Below are positions 33,045-42,681 of a DNA stretch of 63,260 bases, piece by piece. The notes under the pieces are model-generated. The model ran no database searches. It was not told the DNA's origin and saw only the letters and a program-made list of their open reading frames with translations. This DNA comes from ANME-2 cluster archaeon (GTDB taxonomy: Archaea; Halobacteriota; Methanosarcinia; Methanosarcinales; Methanocomedenaceae). How positions within the stretch are numbered: position 1 is the first letter of the stretch; the number at the start of each line of letters is the position of its first letter. A program made the translations under genes and the position numbers. Location of the stretch: the NCBI GenBank assembly GCA_014237145.1, contig JAAXOC010000088.1:1-63260 (forward strand), written 5' to 3'.

Positions 33045-33093
33045 AGTTTACCGACTTAATTATCTTGATATGTGAAATCCGGGATTGGAGCAT

Positions 33094-34074
33094 ATGACTG
33101 AATTTACTACCCAAAGATTAATAATCGGGATATTGAAAACAATTTATGAAAACAATGATCCTATAGGTGCACGGCTGATTGCTGATAAAATGGATGGTAG
33201 GGGATATTCCCTGGGGGAAAGGGGTGTCAGGTATCACCTGAAGATACTGGATGCCAATGGATTTACCCAAAGGGTAGGCTATTCCGGAAGGATCATTACA
33301 AAAAAGGGGATTGCTGAGATAAACAATGCTCTTGTCGGGGATAGGATGGGTTTTGTCATCAGCCGTATCCATGAAATGCTATACAGTACGACTTTTGATC
33401 CCTATAAAAAAAGCGGGAACATAATCATCAATCTGTCTATTATGGATCAAGATGATCTGGATAGAAATAAGGAATTGATCCATACCGTTATCCAGAAAGG
33501 TTATACGGTCAGTCCAAGGTGCCATATTTTTGAAGGAGGGGAAAATGTTTCTAATATCGCCATCCCGCAAGGATCAGTAGGGATTGCTACCATATGCGCT
33601 TTAACCATTGATGGGGTCCTTCTTAAACAGGGTATTCCTATTGAGACCAAATATGGAGGTATCATCCAGGTAGATAATGGTACACCTGTGCGTTTCACAG
33701 ATTTGATATCATATACTGGGACTTCACTTGACCCGATCACGATATTCATGTCTAAAAGGATGACAGATGTTATGGGTATATTGGAAAATGATAGCGGCCT
33801 ACTTCTGGGCAACCTTAGGGAAGCCCCTATTATTGCTCATGAAAAAATCATGGATATTATTTCCCTGCTTAATGGGGCAGATATCGGTGGTGTTATCGGA
33901 CATATTCATGCAGGGGATACAGTTCTTTCTGCCCCCATCAGTCCGGGTAAAATTGGAATACCCATATATGCCGGAGTTAACCCTCTGGCGGTATTGGTTG
34001 AAAAGGGGATTGAAGTGACAACACATCCGGTCAGTTTGATAATGGATTATAGTGAAATGAATACAATATTTTAG
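33094..34074 (+). CDS. nrpR: Nitrogen repressor NrpR (winged-helix plus one NRD domain)
   Basis: 326 residues from the ATG at 33094 (GGAG 4 bp upstream; a TTG at 33085 is an alternative). N-terminal winged helix about residues 1-75 (ERGVRYHLKILDANGF), then a single NRD effector domain with GGVIGHIHAGDTVLS and GIPIYAGVNPLAVL. One NRD rather than two matches the NrpRI form of Methanosarcina, which works with a separate NrpRII. It represses nif, glnA and amt-glnK and is released by 2-oxoglutarate (family knowledge). It sits 330 bp upstream of nifH. Confidence 0.92.
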   Translation: MTEFTTQRLIIGILKTIYENNDPIGARLIADKMDGRGYSLGERGVRYHLKILDANGFTQRVGYSGRIITKKGIAEINNALVGDRMGFVISRIHEMLYSTTFDPYKKSGNIIINLSIMDQDDLDRNKELIHTVIQKGYTVSPRCHIFEGGENVSNIAIPQGSVGIATICALTIDGVLLKQGIPIETKYGGIIQVDNGTPVRFTDLISYTGTSLDPITIFMSKRMTDVMGILENDSGLLLGNLREAPIIAHEKIMDIISLLNGADIGGVIGHIHAGDTVLSAPISPGKIGIPIYAGVNPLAVLVEKGIEVTTHPVSLIMDYSEMNTIF

Positions 34075-34319: not shown

Positions 34320-35222
<903 letters not shown>

Positions 35223-35236
35223 GACAGGGTGATGTT

Positions 35237-35554
35237 ATGCAGCTAATAAGAGCGATCATACGGCCCGAAAAAGTGGATGAAGTGGTGGACAGTCTCGATG
35301 CTAAGGGCTTCTCTGCATTTACCAGGATCGATGTCTTTGGCAGGGGTAAGCAGAAGGGTATACAAATCGGACCGACCGTTTATGATGAACTGGCAAAGGT
35401 GATGCTGATGATAGCTGTCAATGATGATGACAGCGATGAAATTGTCAGAATCATCGAAGAAAGTGCACGAACAGGAAGTTTCGGTGATGGTAAGATCTTT
35501 ATCGGTCCGATAGATGAGGCGTATACCATCCGTACAGGCGAGATGGGACTATGA
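35237..35554 (+). CDS. nifI1: Nitrogenase-associated PII protein NifI1
   Basis: 105 residues from the ATG at 35237, preceded by GGTGATGTT; a TTG at 35219 would overlap nifH. PII-type sequence (IIRPEKVDEVVDSLDAKG; ARTGSFGDGKIFIGPID) with the NifI1 T-loop GRGKQKGIQIGPTVYDEL. Together with NifI2 it forms the complex that inhibits NifDK after ammonium addition and is relieved by 2-oxoglutarate (known in methanogens). Stop overlaps nifI2 (ATGA). Confidence 0.93.
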   Translation: MQLIRAIIRPEKVDEVVDSLDAKGFSAFTRIDVFGRGKQKGIQIGPTVYDELAKVMLMIAVNDDDSDEIVRIIEESARTGSFGDGKIFIGPIDEAYTIRTGEMGL

Positions 35555-35907
35555 AAGAAGTGATAGCCGTCCTCCGGATGAATAAGATACAGCTAACCAA
35601 GGATGCCCTGGCAGAGGCGGGATATACCTGCCTTACTGCCAACCTCGTCTACGGCCGCGGGAAACAGAAAGGATTATACATCAATCCGCTTGGCAATATC
35701 ACACCCGATGATAAAAGAGCAACTATCAGGTTCCTTCCGAAAAGGATGCTCACCCTTGTGGTGGATGATGCATCCGTTTCACCAGTGGTTGAGTTGATCA
35801 TGCAGACCAACCGGACCGGAATGATCGGTGATGGAAGGATATTTGTCTGTCCTATGAACGATGCGGTCCGTGTCCGGACAGGAGAGCGGGGTAATGATGC
35901 ACTGTAA
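35551..35907 (+). CDS. nifI2: Nitrogenase-associated PII protein NifI2
   Basis: 118 residues; PII fold with the longer T-loop of NifI2 (VYGRGKQKGLYINPLGN) and the C-terminal TGMIGDGRIFVCPMNDAVRVRTGE. Partner of NifI1 in switching off nitrogenase. Located between nifH and nifD, the position that marks archaeal and clostridial nitrogenase operons and is not usual for CfbCD or chlorophyll-type homologues. The next gene starts 60 bp later with its own strong RBS. Confidence 0.93.
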   Translation: MKEVIAVLRMNKIQLTKDALAEAGYTCLTANLVYGRGKQKGLYINPLGNITPDDKRATIRFLPKRMLTLVVDDASVSPVVELIMQTNRTGMIGDGRIFVCPMNDAVRVRTGERGNDAL

Positions 35908-35967: not shown

Positions 35968-37338
35968 ATGCCGCTGACATTACTTGAATGTGATAAACCG
36001 ATACCTGAACGGGAGAAACATACCTACATTAAAAAGTCAGGTGAATCCATCGTACCGGCGTGCAATGTCCAGACAACGCCTGGTGACCTGACCGAGCGCG
36101 GATGCACCTATGCAGGATGCATGGGCGTGGTCGGGGGTCCGGTAAAAGATGTCATACATCTGGTACACGGACCCATTGGCTGTGCTTTCTACACATGGGG
36201 CGGGGGACGCAGGCAGAACCTGTCCGATAACACGGAATTCCACCGGAAGTACTGCTTTTCGACAAGTATGCAGGAAGCAAACATCATATTTGGTGGAGAG
36301 CAGAAACTGCACAAAGCGATCCTTGAAGCATACGAGCGTTTTCCTGATGTGAACGGTGTGTTCGTCTATGCGACATGCGTGATCGGACTTATCGGGGACG
36401 ATATAAATAATGTCTGCAAGCAGGCATCAAAAGAGATCGGAGTTCCTGTGATCCCGTTCAGTTGCGAAGGCTTTCGGGGCGTCAGCCAGTCACTCGGACA
36501 CCACATTGCAAACGATGTTATCTTTGAGCGTATCGTGGGCACAAAAGAACCCGACGAAGTTACTCCGTATGACATAAACATCATCGGTGACTATAATATC
36601 CAGGGTGACCTGTGGATCATTGCTCCGTTATTCGAAGCGATGGGACTTAGAATACTCTGCACATTCACAGGAAATGCTTCGATCGATGATCTTGCCATGG
36701 CGCACAGAGCGAAGCTGAATGTCATGCACTGCCAGCGTTCCACTCCATATATCTGCCAGTTGATGGAAGAGAAATATGAACTTCCTTACATGCCGGTATC
36801 ACTCTTTGGAATTGAGCAGACATCTAAGGCACTTCGTGATGTTGCATCCTTCTTCGGTCTTGAAGATAAGGCAGAGGAGGTCATAGAGAGTGAGGTTGCA
36901 AAAATACTACCTGAAATTGAGTATTACAAAGAACAACTCCGTGGAAAACGAGTCTTCATCTATCAGGGTGCGCCGCGTGCGTGGCACTGGATCAAGCTGA
37001 TGGAGGAACTTGGAATGGAGGTAGTAGGCGCTGCAACGACGTTCGGGCACACCGATGACTATGAGAAGATCATCGAACGGATCGGTGATGGAGCCCTGGT
37101 GATCGACAACCCCAATTCAGTGGAACTTCGGGAGATCCTCATCGGATACAAGCCCGACCTCTTCATCTCAGGACTCAAGGAAAAGTTCCTTGCATACAAA
37201 CTCGGGGTGCCATTCGTCAATGGTCACTCGTACGAGAGAGGACCGTATGCCGTGTACAGCGGATTTCTGAAGTTCGCAAAGGACATACACACGACGATCA
37301 ACCATCCGGCATGGAAATTAATCGAGGGAAGAGCATGA
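35968..37338 (+). CDS. nifD: Nitrogenase alpha chain (short, Nif/Vnf-like mosaic)
   Basis: 456 residues, shorter than typical Mo-NifD. P-cluster cysteines C46 (GCTYAGC), C72 (GPIGC) and C137 (ATCVIG), and cofactor ligands C245 (NVMHCQRS) and H420 (NGHSYERGPY), are all present, as are Q174 and H178 in GVSQSLGHH. Around the cofactor it mixes features: GVSQSLGHHIAND is as in Mo-NifD, while GPIGCAFYTWG and YCFSTSMQE are closer to VnfD/AnfD. RBS AAGGAGGAG. No gamma subunit gene (vnfG/anfG) follows. Probably a cofactor-bearing nitrogenase; metal and substrate cannot be told from sequence alone. Confidence 0.92.
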   Translation: MPLTLLECDKPIPEREKHTYIKKSGESIVPACNVQTTPGDLTERGCTYAGCMGVVGGPVKDVIHLVHGPIGCAFYTWGGGRRQNLSDNTEFHRKYCFSTSMQEANIIFGGEQKLHKAILEAYERFPDVNGVFVYATCVIGLIGDDINNVCKQASKEIGVPVIPFSCEGFRGVSQSLGHHIANDVIFERIVGTKEPDEVTPYDINIIGDYNIQGDLWIIAPLFEAMGLRILCTFTGNASIDDLAMAHRAKLNVMHCQRSTPYICQLMEEKYELPYMPVSLFGIEQTSKALRDVASFFGLEDKAEEVIESEVAKILPEIEYYKEQLRGKRVFIYQGAPRAWHWIKLMEELGMEVVGAATTFGHTDDYEKIIERIGDGALVIDNPNSVELREILIGYKPDLFISGLKEKFLAYKLGVPFVNGHSYERGPYAVYSGFLKFAKDIHTTINHPAWKLIEGRA

Positions 37339-38684
37339 CTCAGGTAACAGCGAAAGCGAAAACAGAGACAAAGACGAAAACAAAGGCAAAGGTAAAGAGA
37401 TCGGTCACGATCAATCCAGGCATGATATGCCAGCCGATCGGTGCAATGCAGGCGGTGCTCGGCGTACACGGCGCAATCTCGCTTGTGCACGGATCACAGG
37501 GCTGCGCAGCCTATCCAATGAGGATGTTCAACCGACATTTCCAGGAGCCGGTCGAGATCGCATTAAGCTCACTTGGCGAGGACGCTGCGGTCTTTGGCGG
37601 AGCAGACAACCTTGTAAAGGGAGTACACGCGCTTGTGGCAAGGAGGCAGCCTGAACTGATCGCAGTTCTCACAACCTGCCTCTCAGAGACGATCGGGGAT
37701 GATGTCAACGGAATCCTCCGAAAGATCGACCTACCTACCACACTGGTCCCAGTGCATACACCGAGTTATATCGGTTCCCATGTCACAGGATACGACAACG
37801 CAGTGAAAGCGCTTGTTACGCATCTTGCAGAGCAGACCGGACCTAACAGCAAGATCAACATCGCTGTCGGGCTCTTAAACCCGGGAGATATCAGGGAACT
37901 CAAGAACATGCTTGCTGCGATGCGGGTAAAAGCGATCATCTTAACCGACATCTCAGAAACCCTTGATGCGCCGCTGATATTGCCAAGACCGCGGTTTCCA
38001 GATGGCGGGACAACGCTTGCCGAGATCGCTGACACAGCCAACTCGATTGGATCGATCGCCATGTGCAAGCATGCAGGCGGAGGCGCGGTAACGTATCTTA
38101 CGAACAAGCACAAGGTGCCGATGATTTCAGGTTCATGCCCGATCGGTGTTGCCAACACTGATGCGTTCATCGGGAACGTGAGCCACCTTTCGGGAAGACC
38201 GATCCCGGATGAACTGCGAAAGGAGAGGGGACGGCTCATTGATGCAATGGTCGATGTGCAGTTCAAGATCGCACAGAAGAGGGTTGCGATCCATGCAGAC
38301 CCGGACGTTGCATCTGGAATGGCACGGTTTGTGCATGAACTCGGGATGGAGCCGACAATCGTTGCGACCGGAACCGAGAGCAAGGAGTTTGTTGCGGATG
38401 TACAGGCGGTCGCAAGCCAGACAGGGCATGAGATCGAGATTATCTCGGGATGCGACCTTTACGAGTTGCATGAGGCAGTGAAAGCGGTTGGCGTCGATCT
38501 GCTGATGGGAAATTCGCAAGCAAAATATATCGGAGACGACGAGAAAATAGCTTTCGCAAGGATTGGATTCCCGGTCTATGACCGTGTGGGCTATCAAAGG
38601 AGGGCGATCATCGGGTACAATGGCGGGATCAATCTTATGGACCTGATCACCAACTCGATCCTGGAGCATGGGGATGCGTCGTAA
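37335..38684 (+). CDS. nifK: Nitrogenase beta chain
   Basis: 449 residues from the ATG at 37335, which overlaps the nifD stop (ATGA); an ATG at 37311 inside nifD is less likely. P-cluster cysteines C32 (MICQPIG), C57 (GSQGCAAY) and C115 (TTCLSETIGDD) are conserved, as are NRHFQEP and the C-terminal ARIGFPVYDRVGY. The first 22 or so residues are an unusual Lys/Thr-rich low-complexity tail (KAKTETKTKTKAK). It lacks the long N-terminal extension of Mo-NifK from proteobacteria. Pairs with NifD. Confidence 0.93.
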   Translation: MTQVTAKAKTETKTKTKAKVKRSVTINPGMICQPIGAMQAVLGVHGAISLVHGSQGCAAYPMRMFNRHFQEPVEIALSSLGEDAAVFGGADNLVKGVHALVARRQPELIAVLTTCLSETIGDDVNGILRKIDLPTTLVPVHTPSYIGSHVTGYDNAVKALVTHLAEQTGPNSKINIAVGLLNPGDIRELKNMLAAMRVKAIILTDISETLDAPLILPRPRFPDGGTTLAEIADTANSIGSIAMCKHAGGGAVTYLTNKHKVPMISGSCPIGVANTDAFIGNVSHLSGRPIPDELRKERGRLIDAMVDVQFKIAQKRVAIHADPDVASGMARFVHELGMEPTIVATGTESKEFVADVQAVASQTGHEIEIISGCDLYELHEAVKAVGVDLLMGNSQAKYIGDDEKIAFARIGFPVYDRVGYQRRAIIGYNGGINLMDLITNSILEHGDAS

Positions 38685-39615
38685 TTACCCAGTACTGTTG
38701 AGGATGGGTTTACTAGGTTTACTCATCCTGGCAGTCCTTGCGTCAGGTTGTATGGAGAAAAGCAGTGATATCGGCATGGCTGTTGAGTTCAATGACCACG
38801 CCGCATGTGCTTATGTAGCAAGGGAGAACAACTGGTACGAAGATGAAGGGATCAATCTAACAACTTACGAGAACTATGCCACAGGAATGCAGCTTACCAG
38901 TGCACTTGCAAGGGGTGACATACAGGTTGCCTATATCTGTCTGTCTCCGGCTATACTTGCATATTCAAGGGGCGTTCCGTTGGTGATCGTTGCCGGATCA
39001 CATAAACACGGCTATGGCCTGGTTGCCAGTCCTGATATCACAAATATCTCTGATCTGAATGGTGCAACCATAGGATGCGTGCGGGAAGGCGGCATGGTGG
39101 ATATCCTGCTAAACCGCATGATCAGGGAATATGATCTCAAGGATGTCCGGATCCAGCGAATGGAACCTTTAAAACAAGTCATTGCCCTGGAAACGGGCAG
39201 GATCGATGCAGCATTTTTGCCTGAGCATCATGCAACTGCTGCCGAGTCCAACGGCTTTCACATGCTTATCACAAGCCATGAACTGTGGGATGATATGCAG
39301 GGCAGTGTCCTGATCGTTAAGCAAGAACTTATTGAAGACGATCCCAAAACCGTAAGAAAACTGGTTCAGGTTACACAGAGAGCAACTGACCGGATAAATG
39401 ATGATCCGGATGAAGCGGCTGCAGTCCTTGCTGAAGAACTGGACACCGAACTTGAGATTATTAAAAAATCGATGGGCCGGCTGAATTACACCACCCAAAT
39501 CGATGCAGGGTCTGTCCAGGAGATGATCGACTTCATGGTTGAACTTGGGTATATCGAAGAGGGTATGAAAGCCGAGGATATGCTGGATACTACATTCCTG
39601 GGGGAAGATATATGA
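38668..39615 (+). CDS. NitT/TauT-type ABC transporter substrate-binding lipoprotein
   Basis: 315 residues. Signal peptide with lipobox LASGC (Cys near residue 28), then an NMT1/SsuA-like periplasmic binding fold (MAVEFNDHAACAYVARENNWYEDEGI; GATIGCVREGGMVDILLN). Overlaps the nifK stop, so it is part of the nif transcript. Such proteins bind nitrate, sulfonates, pyrimidines or metal-oxyanion-like ligands; the ligand here is unknown. Its position directly after nifK suggests it supplies something the nitrogenase needs or acts on (inference). Confidence 0.87.
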   Translation: MGMRRNYPVLLRMGLLGLLILAVLASGCMEKSSDIGMAVEFNDHAACAYVARENNWYEDEGINLTTYENYATGMQLTSALARGDIQVAYICLSPAILAYSRGVPLVIVAGSHKHGYGLVASPDITNISDLNGATIGCVREGGMVDILLNRMIREYDLKDVRIQRMEPLKQVIALETGRIDAAFLPEHHATAAESNGFHMLITSHELWDDMQGSVLIVKQELIEDDPKTVRKLVQVTQRATDRINDDPDEAAAVLAEELDTELEIIKKSMGRLNYTTQIDAGSVQEMIDFMVELGYIEEGMKAEDMLDTTFLGEDI

Positions 39616-40457
39616 GAACCAAAAATATGAGACTTTTTACTAACTTTGGGAACGGTTCTAAAATAAATGATCTTCTTTACCATGACCCATTTATGTGGAA
39701 TAAAATAAAAAGTCTGCGAAATATACTGGATGGACTTATCCCGATCATCATATTTATCCTGGTATGGGAGAGCATTGTCAGGCTGCATATTGTTCCCGAA
39801 TATATATTCCCTTCATTCTCTGCTGTGATAAGGGAATTCTACCACCTGACAGTTAATGGGGTCCTGCTGAATAATCTTGCAAGCAGCCTGTTCAGGGTAC
39901 TGGCAGGATTTCTGCTTGGTTCTATGGCTGGTATTATGATGGGGACTGTGATGGGATGTAGGCAGATTATGAACAGGTCGTTTAACCCGATATTCAGTTT
40001 GCTCTATCCAATACCAACGCTTGGCTGGGCACCGCTGTTGATGATCTGGATAGGGATCAATGAGATGCTGCCCATCATATTGATATTCTTGTGTTCCTTC
40101 TTTCCTGTGCTCTATAACACGATCACAGGCATCAGGAGTGTTGATAGTGATGTCATCAAAGCGGCAAGAACCCTGGGTGCATCAGATCGAAAGATACTGA
40201 CCAGTATTATCCTGCCGCTTGCCGTGCCAAACATCTTTACAGGGCTTAGACTTGAAGCCGGTATGGCATGGCGTGTTGTGATAGCAGCTGAGATGGTTGC
40301 GATCCCGACAGGCATCGGCGCACTGCTGATACGCTCGGAGAGTCTGCTTAGGGTGGATATTATCATCGTCTGCTTGATGGTGCTTTCGGTAATGTGCCTG
40401 GTCTTTGAGCGGTTCTTCCAGTATATCGAAACTAAAATGACAAAAGAATGGAGGTAG
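39612..40457 (+). CDS. NitT/TauT-type ABC transporter permease
   Basis: 281 residues, about six membrane segments. The cytoplasmic EAA-like loop AARTLGASDRKILTSIILPLAVPNIFTGLRLEAGMAW (split here: residues about 190-225) matches SsuC/TauC permeases. It starts at an ATGA overlap with the binding protein gene and ends just before the ATPase gene. Part of the nif-linked transporter. Confidence 0.9.
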   Translation: MRTKNMRLFTNFGNGSKINDLLYHDPFMWNKIKSLRNILDGLIPIIIFILVWESIVRLHIVPEYIFPSFSAVIREFYHLTVNGVLLNNLASSLFRVLAGFLLGSMAGIMMGTVMGCRQIMNRSFNPIFSLLYPIPTLGWAPLLMIWIGINEMLPIILIFLCSFFPVLYNTITGIRSVDSDVIKAARTLGASDRKILTSIILPLAVPNIFTGLRLEAGMAWRVVIAAEMVAIPTGIGALLIRSESLLRVDIIIVCLMVLSVMCLVFERFFQYIETKMTKEWR

Positions 40458-40460
40458 ATT

Positions 40461-41150
40461 ATGCCGGATATTGAATTGAAGAATATCAGTAATTATGTAT
40501 TCAATGGTCTGAACATGGAAATATTTGATAAGGAGTTGCTGGTCGTGATCGGTCAAAACGGAGCAGGAAAATCAACACTGCTTAATATCATTGCCGGGCT
40601 TGTGGATTATGAAGGTAGCGTGCTCTTTGACGGGGTTTCGGTCAACAGGATGTTAACCGATAAGCGGCGGGTCGGTTATCTATTCCAGAATCTTGCACTG
40701 TTTCCGCATCTTGATGTTGCATCCAATATAGGATATGGACCTGCAGTGAACGGCAGCGGAAGGGAAAACATTGCACAGAGTGTGGACGAATTGCTCAGGT
40801 TAATGAAGATCGAGCATCTGAGAGACCGCTATCCAAAGAATTTGAGCGGAGGGGAGCGCCAGAGGGTGGCTCTGGCACGGACGCTTGCCGTATCGCCGCG
40901 GGTACTGCTCCTTGATGAGCCATTCAGCAGTCTGGACACTGGAATGTGCAGTTGTATCAGGCAGGAGATCAAAAGGATACAGAGGGGGCTTGGGATCACA
41001 ACTGTGCTTGTTACACATGACATGGCAGAGGCTAAAGAGATGGGGGACAGGATAGTGACTATAAATGGTGGAGAGGTCCATGAGGTGGCTGATCTTCAGC
41101 CTGAACACGGATGTAGCGGGTGCACTATTGATTGTCACTGCAAGAGGTGA
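40461..41150 (+). CDS. ABC transporter ATP-binding protein with Cys-rich tail
   Basis: 229 residues. Walker A GQNGAGKST (about 32-40), signature LSGGERQRVALART (about 128-141), Walker B VLLLDEPFSSLD. It energises the adjacent permease. The last residues, HGCSGCTIDCHCKR, contain four cysteines and two histidines, unusual for this family and suggestive of metal binding or sensing. The RBS GGAGG lies just before the start. Confidence 0.9.
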   Translation: MPDIELKNISNYVFNGLNMEIFDKELLVVIGQNGAGKSTLLNIIAGLVDYEGSVLFDGVSVNRMLTDKRRVGYLFQNLALFPHLDVASNIGYGPAVNGSGRENIAQSVDELLRLMKIEHLRDRYPKNLSGGERQRVALARTLAVSPRVLLLDEPFSSLDTGMCSCIRQEIKRIQRGLGITTVLVTHDMAEAKEMGDRIVTINGGEVHEVADLQPEHGCSGCTIDCHCKR

Positions 41151-41155
41151 ATAAA

Positions 41156-41878
41156 ATGTACAGGGAAATAAAGGATAGATTCGAGAAGATTGTAGCAGAG
41201 CATAACCTGTTAGATGAGACTGTGACGATCAGGGCAAAGCCCCTGACTCCTGAAGAAGCGATAGGAAATCCGGAAAGTGAGGACTTTCCGATACTAAAAG
41301 GGCATGAGCGGTTGATGCAGGCAGAGTTTAAAGGCAGCTTTGGCCAGGCATTCACAGATATGCATGGCGACTTCGAAGGAACACTTCAGGACGTTCTCTA
41401 TATGGAACTTAATAACAACTTCAGGAGGGCAATTTTCATTTCAACCCTGAATGCAGTGATGCGAAATCTTGGTCTGATAGAGGGAAGTGTTCACTGCAAG
41501 GACCGCGGTCCTGAGGAGTGTGGTCAGGATCTGGTTGAGTTTCTTGAGGGATGCAAAATATCAAGGATAGCACTGGTAGGATTCCAACCGGTACATGCAC
41601 GATGTTGCTCCGGATCTCACGAACTTAAGATACTGGACCTGGATAAGGAGAATATTGGGAAAGAGAAATTTGGTGTTGTCGTGCTGGATGGTGACAAGAA
41701 TGCCAAAGAGGTGCTGAAATGGTGCGATCTGGCACTTGTCACAGGAACTACAGTTGTAAACGGGACCATCGAACAGATACTTGATATGGCAGGAGAGAAA
41801 GTGGTGTTCTATGGCATCAGTATAGCTGGGGTTGCACAGTTGTTTGATCTTAACAGATTCTGTCCAAGATCGACATGA
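41156..41878 (+). CDS. DUF364 (PF04016) protein, possible metal-chelation family
   Basis: 240 residues from the ATG at 41156 (AGGTG six bases upstream). It shows the DUF364 pattern: an N-terminal enolase-like part and a C-terminal Rossmann-like part with RIALVGFQPVHARC, DLDKENIG and LALVTGTTVVNGT. The one structurally studied family member was proposed to act in heavy-metal chelation; no activity is proven. It follows the ABC genes by 5 bp and is the last gene of the nif-transporter transcript, so it probably handles the transported ligand or a metal (inference). Confidence 0.85.
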   Translation: MYREIKDRFEKIVAEHNLLDETVTIRAKPLTPEEAIGNPESEDFPILKGHERLMQAEFKGSFGQAFTDMHGDFEGTLQDVLYMELNNNFRRAIFISTLNAVMRNLGLIEGSVHCKDRGPEECGQDLVEFLEGCKISRIALVGFQPVHARCCSGSHELKILDLDKENIGKEKFGVVVLDGDKNAKEVLKWCDLALVTGTTVVNGTIEQILDMAGEKVVFYGISIAGVAQLFDLNRFCPRST

Positions 41879-41940: not shown

Positions 41941-42681
41941 ATGACTTTAGTAATTGATGCCCATAACCATCTGGGCGGACCTGATAAAGGCGACGGCATG
42001 AGCCAGAGTGCAGGTGATATCATTGCCAGGATGGATGCCGCAGGCATTCATAAGGCTGTGGTGTTCCCATTCAATGATGAGGACCAGGGGATTTCATTTT
42101 CCAGAAGTAATGACCAAATCTATAGTGAAGTGGCCCGGAATCCTGACAGGCTGATAGGATTTGGACGCCTTGACCCCAACCAGGGGGAGTAGGCAGTGGC
42201 AGAGGCCCGACGCTGTGTTGTAGAACTGGGATTGTCAGGAATTAAACTACATCCCCATGCCCAGAAGTTTGCTATTGACAGTGCGACCGTGTACAGGATA
42301 GCAGAATGGGTGGCGGCCGCACGGCCTGACATTCCCATAATTTTCGACAACGGCAAGCCGGCATCGCCTAATCAGCTTATTGGCAACCTTGCAGAGACAT
42401 TCCCTGATGTTACGTTCATTCTGGCACACATGCGGGGCGGCGACTTCATTGAAGTGACTGCAGCCCATGATAATATATTTATCCAGACCACAGTGGTGCC
42501 GCAGGTAGAAGTGGTGCAGCAGTGCGTGGATGAATTGGGAGCTGACAGGGTTATAATGGGGTTGGATTCGCCATATCATTCCATGGAGGATGAAGTGACG
42601 AAGGTGGAAGCGCTGCAGTTGCCCGAAGCTGAGAAGTTAATGGTCTTTAGTGGAACTGCAAAAAAAGTACTGAATATCTAA
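41941..42681 (+). CDS. Amidohydrolase (PF04909-like), interrupted by an in-frame TAG
   Basis: 247 codons in one frame. The start has the metal-binding DAHNHLGG (HxH), the middle GIKLHPHAQKF, and the end CVDELGADRVIMGLDSPYHS with the catalytic Asp. Codon 84 is TAG (42190-42192), after LDPNQGE and before AVAEARRCVVELG. Both sides are clearly one protein and no frameshift is needed. Either a nonsense mutation (for example from GAG) or amber readthrough as pyrrolysine. TAG is a normal stop for several genes here, which weakens the pyrrolysine case. A decayed paralogue lies at 9747. Confidence 0.75.

Follow-up and report, generated by a model that had tools for sequence, protein, structure and literature searches.

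A nitrogenase of the methane seep group in an ANME-2 cluster archaeon, probably a molybdenum enzyme whose cofactor is finished without NifEN

Described relatives and the nif locus

Much of the methane of marine sediments is consumed by ANME archaea, whose consortia are nourished by N2 fixation. A methane seep group of ANME nitrogenases has been described, in which NifEN is absent and for which Roseiflexus castenholzii is named as the closest relative (PMC9012536). The Roseiflexus nitrogenase is a Mo enzyme by experiment, and maturation of the FeMo-cofactor on its NifDK without NifEN has been demonstrated in vitro (PMC11573651). In PMC7216921, the clade named Clfx branches basally and is without NifEN, and the classifier of that paper reads the Clfx, F-Mc and Mb-Mc lineages as Nif-like. 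In the next lineage towards Vnf/Anf, diazotrophy of M. thermolithotrophicus is strictly Mo-dependent (PMC9765008). Moreover, an ANME-2 NifD has been assigned FeMo-co explicitly in PMC3578447, which covers the ANME-2 NifD ADF27322.1 and whose "uncharacterised" class includes an ANME-2 NifD. The lineage, its lack of NifEN and a prediction of Mo are already in print.

Here we compare with these systems a nif locus on a stretch of 63,260 nucleotides, called the window below, which is contig C88 of an ANME-2 cluster genome of 2.97 Mb (118 contigs, 99.95% complete, 1.92% contaminated). The McrA of this genome scores 980 and 973 bits against 9qqt and 9qr1, then 910-878 against 1e6y, 8gf5 and 7nkg, and only 739 against the ANME-2c MCR 9qm5. 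The host is most likely an ANME-2a/b-like archaeon. We think it probable that the locus encodes a seep-group Mo nitrogenase whose FeMo-cofactor is most likely finished on NifDK without NifEN.

The nifH-nifI1-nifI2-nifD-nifK operon is intact and has the gene order nifHI1I2DK of the seep group. Amt and PII genes and the NrpR regulator lie ahead of it, and transporter and DUF364 genes follow nifK:

33085-34074, + strand: NrpR-type nitrogen regulator, upstream of nifH (PF01995, 282.6 bits)
34404-35222, + strand: nifH, Fe protein (TIGR01287, 460.5 bits, exceeding the cut-off of 394.35)
35219-35554, + strand: nifI1, PII-type regulator (P-II family matches below cut-off; position between nifH and nifD)
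35551-35907, + strand: nifI2, PII-type regulator (P-II family matches below cut-off; position)
35968-37338, + strand: nifD, nitrogenase alpha subunit, methane seep group (ORF, NCBIfam, trees)
37311-38684, + strand: nifK, beta subunit (PF00148, 403 bits; NifK tree)
38668-39615, + strand: NMT1/SsuA-like ABC substrate-binding protein, overlapping nifK (PF09084, 90 bits)
39612-40457, + strand: ABC permease of the same transporter (profile match; 94% over 246 aa in locus L043)
40461-41150, + strand: ABC ATPase of the same transporter (profile match; 88% in L043)
41132-41878, + strand: DUF364 protein (putative heavy-metal chelation), apparent operon end (PF04016, 63.8 bits; 88% in L043)

The intergenic distances are -4, -4, +60 and -28 bases from nifH to nifK, and -17, -4, +3 and -19 bases from nifK through the binding protein, permease and ATPase to the DUF364 gene; an alternative in-frame nifK ATG at 37335 gives a nifD/nifK overlap of 4 bases. 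A copy of the substrate-binding protein, 88% identical, stands after nifK in L043, and a homologue (70%) lies about 7 kb downstream of nifK in the ANME-1 locus L044. No paper joining DUF364 with nitrogenase was found in a limited literature search. Near nifH there is no match to GGAA-N6-TTCC, which we take to be the Methanococcus NrpR site; for that consensus only, the window holds one match (62060), with 1.3 expected.

Some further features of these loci were observed. An amidohydrolase frame (41941-42681) is broken by a single in-frame TAG at 42190-42192; no PylB over cut-off is found in the genome (best 45.8, cut-off 348.2), and for this reason pyrrolysine was rejected and a broken gene or an assembly error is likelier. 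The L050 locus has, upstream of nifH, a 122-aa ORF without a Pfam family that shares 44% identity with the DUF364 protein across 118 aa. On the ANME-1 contig, a second partial copy of the nifK C-terminus (110 aa) lies about 0.5 kb downstream of nifK (L044:3817-5916).

Family, position and residues of NifD

NifD is a single complete ORF of 456 aa that matches PF00148 at 372 bits. Among the NCBIfam models, it scores above the cut-offs of TIGR01862 (603.9 bits, cut-off 486.05) and of the broad alternative-nitrogenase model TIGR01284 (570, cut-off 512.8), below that of the Mo equivalog TIGR01282 (522.7, cut-off 653.55), and far below those of the VNFD (480.6, cut-off 823.1) and ANFD (445.9, cut-off 873.8) equivalogs. 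In comparisons with its AlphaFold model, VnfD (Z 44.2) has a small lead over MoFe (Z 41.4), among 50 listed matches that do not include 9spz; matches of this predicted fold do not distinguish V from Mo enzymes. Around the cofactor loops the model is of low quality, with pLDDT below 50 at residues 77-85, and is too uncertain there to judge the insertion that is described below.

A NifD tree of 60 rows, rooted with NifE, was computed from 52 of 68 NifD-type and 8 of 18 NifE-type rows, leaving out the long branches L055_D, L052_E, L053_E and L084_E, near-duplicates and others. The relatives were the best 80 of 584, of which the first tree took loci L043-L099 (57 of 80) and not L100-L122. The labels Mo I/II, Vnf and Anf of the loci denote tree position relative to solved structures, not metal data, and the group names are partly presumed by us. 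Support of 100/99 was obtained for the seep group (window, G004, G015 and ANME-1 GoMg1), for a clade of Schekmanbacteria with four Methanoperedens, for the thermophile lineage with Vnf/Anf, and for all intermediate lineages together with Vnf and Anf, apart from Mo groups I and II. A single clade of seep and Methanoperedens/Schekmanbacteria rows appears in the best tree without support (73/32). The NifK tree, with SH-aLRT only and without G015, whose nifK is partly masked, gives the same order at SH-aLRT 97.

AU tests, for which the groups were named once a first tree had been seen, reject joining the four seep rows to MoI (p 3.7e-5), to MoII (p 2.8e-6) or to both (p 5.3e-4), as well as joining the seep and Methanoperedens/Schekmanbacteria rows to both Mo groups (p 0.0011). 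The window NifD lies outside Mo groups I and II, on the stem towards Vnf/Anf and within the published methane seep group. The initial annotation had proposed such a phylogeny and had regarded robust nesting inside a characterised Mo clade as fatal to its suggestion of a less characterised lineage; given the trees and AU tests, this did not occur for groups I and II. The suggestion stands as regards these two groups and fails in that the lineage is the methane seep group already published (PMC9012536). The topology found is that of PMC7216921.

The following residues and codons of NifD, all assigned by alignment, are important for the comparison; numbers other than those of the window are from A. 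vinelandii:

36103-36105, + strand: codon C46, P-cluster ligand Cys62
36181-36183, + strand: codon C72, P-cluster ligand Cys88
36196-36219, + strand: W77-G-G-G-R-R82-Q83-N84, with a two-residue insertion before the Arg96 motif; R82 is Arg96, and Q83 replaces Arg97
36376-36378, + strand: codon C137, P-cluster ligand Cys154
36730-36732, + strand: codon C255, cofactor ligand Cys275
36964-36978, + strand: Q333-G-A-P-R337, positions 355-359; Gly357 is changed to Ala, Arg359 is retained
37225-37227, + strand: codon H420, cofactor ligand His442

All P-cluster and cofactor ligands are thus present, as the initial annotation had noted, and the strings that it quoted are all found in NifD. Its claim of mixed Mo and V/Fe features is also borne out. 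Columns were called diagnostic when one residue is common to at least 80% of 28 Mo rows and a different one to at least 80% of 23 V/Fe rows; at the 30 such columns NifD has the Mo residue in 13, the V/Fe residue in 7 and neither in 10. True Mo rows score 27-30 Mo and true V/Fe rows 27-30 V/Fe, which follows from the construction of the columns. In the three intermediate groups (seep with the window included, Methanoperedens/Schekmanbacteria, and thermophile) each of the 15 rows shows such a mixture, with 10-14 Mo and 5-10 V/Fe residues. Mixing is therefore a property of the whole stem between the classical Mo enzymes and Vnf/Anf, rather than of this protein, and no evidence for another metal.

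Of the three motifs that had been called alternative-like, two are mislabelled. Asn440-Gly441 before His442 is indeed V-like. GPIGCAFYTWG is nearer to Mo group II and has Tyr at position 91, as do 23 of 28 Mo rows (Phe in the other five), and all 23 V/Fe rows have Asp; a Methanosarcina NifD (L072) reads GPIGCAYFTW. YCFSTSMQE is nearer to YCVSTDMQE of Mo group II than to YVWSTDMKE of VnfD or YTYATDVKE of AnfD.

The nine cofactor segments contain 15 diagnostic columns, of which nine are Mo-like (Ala65, Val71, Tyr91, Arg96, Asn98, Ser423, Lys426, Lys428 and Ser443), three V/Fe-like and three neither; Gly69 and Glu427 also differ from the V/Fe residues. The window agrees with Mo group I in Arg96, Asn98, Lys426, Glu427, Lys428, Gly69 and Ala65, seven positions that are occupied in every one of the 23 V/Fe rows by Lys, Tyr, Arg, Val/Pro, Gly, Leu/His and Cys, respectively. 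The Mo-enzyme set around FeMo-co (Cys275, His442, Arg96, Gly69 and Lys426/Glu427/Lys428) is complete, with G334-A335 in place of Gly356-Gly357. Gly357 is credited with preventing clashes with FeMo-co (PMC11573651); Ala occupies this position in all four seep rows, all five Methanoperedens/Schekmanbacteria rows and three of six thermophile rows. Besides, Glu380 is changed to Thr, and Q232, N440, G441, P358 and W361 are V-like.

The insertion beside Arg96 and the change of Arg97 to Gln (TWGGG[R/T]RQN) are found in six of six seep-type genomes, namely that of the window, G004, G006, G015, G016 and ANME-1 GoMg1; in the 62 other NifD/VnfD/AnfD rows the insertion never occurs and Arg97 always does. 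The available sections of the publications on this lineage mention neither this signature nor the operon tail of ABC transporter and DUF364 genes.

Metal and cofactor assembly

Molybdenum appears to be the best-supported metal for the window NifDK, because the protein is flanked in the phylogeny by Roseiflexus and the classical Mo enzymes in one direction and by M. thermolithotrophicus in the other, and because of its residues. No AnfG/VnfG match exists in the 99.95%-complete genome, and the same model detects the control M. acetivorans; the missing gamma gene of the initial annotation is confirmed, and is what a Mo enzyme shows. The genome also encodes a ModA that passes its cut-off, next to a ModB-like gene. 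The residues considered in PMC3578447 (Gly69, no positive charge at 380, Lys428) point to Mo in the window NifD. The opinion that the metal cannot be predicted is not supported, as Mo is predicted in print for the lineage and its neighbours are Mo enzymes (PMC3578447, PMC11573651, PMC9765008).

Several observations do count against Mo: the 7 of 30 V/Fe-like columns, the scores above the TIGR01284 and below the TIGR01282 cut-off, the VnfD-leaning fold, Ala357, Gln97 and Thr380. The TIGR01284 score and the fold, together with the five V-like residues and the position on the Vnf/Anf stem, would suit a vanadium or iron-only nitrogenase that lacks a gamma subunit, which we think unlikely in view of the gamma gene not found, the Mo group I residues at seven positions where all V/Fe rows differ, the VNFD and ANFD scores far under their cut-offs, and the Mo enzymes published for neighbouring lineages; Lys96, Cys65, Gly428 and a delta/gamma gene, which mark VnfD/AnfD, are all lacking. 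It is highly improbable that the protein is a nitrogenase-like reductase (methylthio-alkane reductase, CfbD or protochlorophyllide reductase), even if the PF00148 fold is shared and NifH passes the CfbC model too (408.9 bits, cut-off 402). NifD is not closest to MarD: it scores 563 bits against the solved nitrogenase 9spz vs 135.8 against 9fmg/9d9u, which we take to be methylthio-alkane reductase and which the search output labels Nitrogenase. Moreover, every P-cluster and cofactor ligand is present, CfbD is a separate gene on contig C115 (TIGR03282, 541.6 bits, over cut-off), and N2 fixation by ANME is tied to this nitrogenase type, as reported via earlier work (PMC9012536).

Returning to the seep-group Mo enzyme, the alpha-chain model matches only NifD, NifK and the C115 gene in this draft of 118 contigs; NifE and NifN were not found. 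With both absent, NifDK itself is the most likely site of cofactor completion, and by analogy with Roseiflexus it probably matures its own FeMo-cofactor. A stand-alone NifB would produce the Fe8S9C precursor, and NifH would assist the insertion of Mo and homocitrate on NifDK itself, as in the Roseiflexus system in vitro. NifDK, carrying P-cluster and FeMo-cofactor, would then reduce N2 with electrons from NifH, and NifI1/NifI2 would shut it off under sufficient nitrogen.

No NifE was found in any of 11 genomes with NifD of the seep or Methanoperedens/Schekmanbacteria type, counting once G004, which belongs to the same genus as the genome studied, and G017 (the CSMAG_2516 record, in which a nifD DNA stretch of G004 occurs identically). 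The genome-wide search covered 13 named genomes, and nothing was read as NifE in G017, ANME-1, Schekmanbacteria and the four Methanoperedens. Among 17 genomes of the family, including this one, five have a short NifD and no NifE match (the G006 copy is partial, that of G016 split by a frameshift), six have NifE and six neither. NifE passes its cut-off in G001, G002, G009 and G014 (670-672 bits), and fragments in G005 and G010 fit NifE best; four of these six genomes carry a long Methanosarcina-type NifD. An ANME-2a genome with nifHDK, nifE and nifN, like the long type of the sister genomes, has also been reported (PMC12622379). In the six deeper intermediate genomes L050-L055, a second alpha-like gene is always present; it passes the NifE cut-off only in L055 (Methanovirga) and is tentatively read as NifE throughout.

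The NifB of this genome, on contig C96, is of the stand-alone archaeal type: 129 of 272 aligned residues (47.4%) are identical to the solved archaeal NifB 7jma, all nine cysteines in the aligned part are kept, and it is 48% identical to a Schekmanbacteria NifB-like protein. It stays below the cut-off of TIGR01290 (277.9 bits, cut-off 343.65), and with the 7jma match, the cysteines and the longer protein of that model (441 positions), absence of NifB can be mostly dismissed. G015 has a canonical-type NifB only. Archaeal isopropylmalate/homocitrate-type synthases are present, none over the NifV cut-off. Some evidence counts against self-maturation, namely the TIGR01290 score, the lack of NifB in the seep-type genomes G004 (94% complete), G016 (99%) and G006 (57%), and NifB-like genes in relatives devoid of NifD. 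Genes of this second archaeal type, as on C96, occur in G008, G011 and G012 (L041, L035, L039), two of them near-complete, in which no NifD was found, and their retention suggests another role. One published ANME-2a genome has no clear nifB (PMC12622379).

A NifEN that is present and was missed through an assembly gap, or another protein serving as scaffold, seems very unlikely to us. MAGs are incomplete, G006 being just 57% complete, and the ANME-1 genome G018 gives eight further component-1-like matches to the NifE model (72-133 bits), which we read as probable nitrogenase-like paralogues; however, NifE was found in none of 11 genomes, the genome studied is nearly complete, the same model and its alpha-chain relative do detect NifE in four sister genomes, and the absence is also in print (PMC9012536). 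Another quite unlikely reading concerns the pocket, whose wall would have been rebuilt by the Gly-Gly insertion, R97 to Q and Q355/A357, so that the precursor may be matured, exchanged or used directly (as Fe8S9C or in a form with other metal) in Mo-poor sulfidic sediment, and the enzyme would not simply be a Roseiflexus-like Mo enzyme. If this were true, the co-operonic ABC transporter and DUF364 protein might be a dedicated supply of metal or organic acid.

Both kinds of nif loci occur in the family, even within one genus: the seep type without NifE in G000, G004, G006, G015 and G016, and the Methanosarcina type with NifE in G001, G002, G005 and G010 (loci L004-L013); none of the 17 genomes has both. 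A Schekmanbacteria MAG (L045:93-6966) carries an ANME/Methanoperedens-type nitrogenase without NifE, likely by transfer between archaea and bacteria unless the MAG is misbinned. Beside its nifDK are a NifB-like radical SAM gene, a NifX-like gene (PF02579) and a MOT1 molybdate transporter, and the gap between nifD and nifK holds a reverse-strand ORF that presumably resembles a four-helix rRNA-intron protein, not a gamma subunit. An Archaeoglobaceae MAG (L054/G028) has a thermophile-lineage nifHI1I2DK, and genes resembling NifE and NifN lie about 35 kb away on that contig.

We think that assembly of the cofactor without NifEN bears on the origin of nitrogenase and on the engineering of minimal nitrogenases. 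The Arg96-loop signature and the operon tail offer concrete residues and genes for testing.

Comparison with known systems

VnfD and AnfD share N440, Q232 and W361 with the window NifD, and VnfD also G441 and P358; they differ in Lys96, Tyr98, Gly428, Cys65 and a gamma subunit, none of which is found in the window. The Methanosarcina-type Mo NifD (group II; G001, G002, G005, G010) has the P-cluster and cofactor ligands in common with it, although it is about 526 aa long with an internal insertion, is 47-48% identical and is accompanied by NifE, and the AU test rejects a joint clade. Closer in character is the thermophile lineage (Methanothermococcus L053, Desulfovirgula L051, 9spz), named F-Mc in PMC7216921, with mixed Mo/V residues, about 49-55% identity and nifI1I2 in its loci. 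The genomes of L053 and L051, in contrast, have a NifE-like gene, and the NifD of this lineage has Lys193, Asp232-Trp233 and no Arg96-loop insertion.

NifDK of Roseiflexus (Clfx), whose kinship is taken from papers alone, is likewise NifEN-less and keeps Arg96 and the cofactor ligands, but comes from a thermophilic bacterium with the order nifHBDK (PMC11573651). The ANME methane seep group shares with the window the order nifHI1I2DK, the lack of nifEN, the ligands and the tree position (PMC9012536; PMC3578447). Among the best 80 of 584 relatives, the NifD of ANME-1 GoMg1 is 75% identical and falls in the same 100/99 clade. No essential difference was seen between the window and this group, to which it adds a genome, the Arg96-loop insertion with R97 to Q, and the ABC-DUF364 tail.
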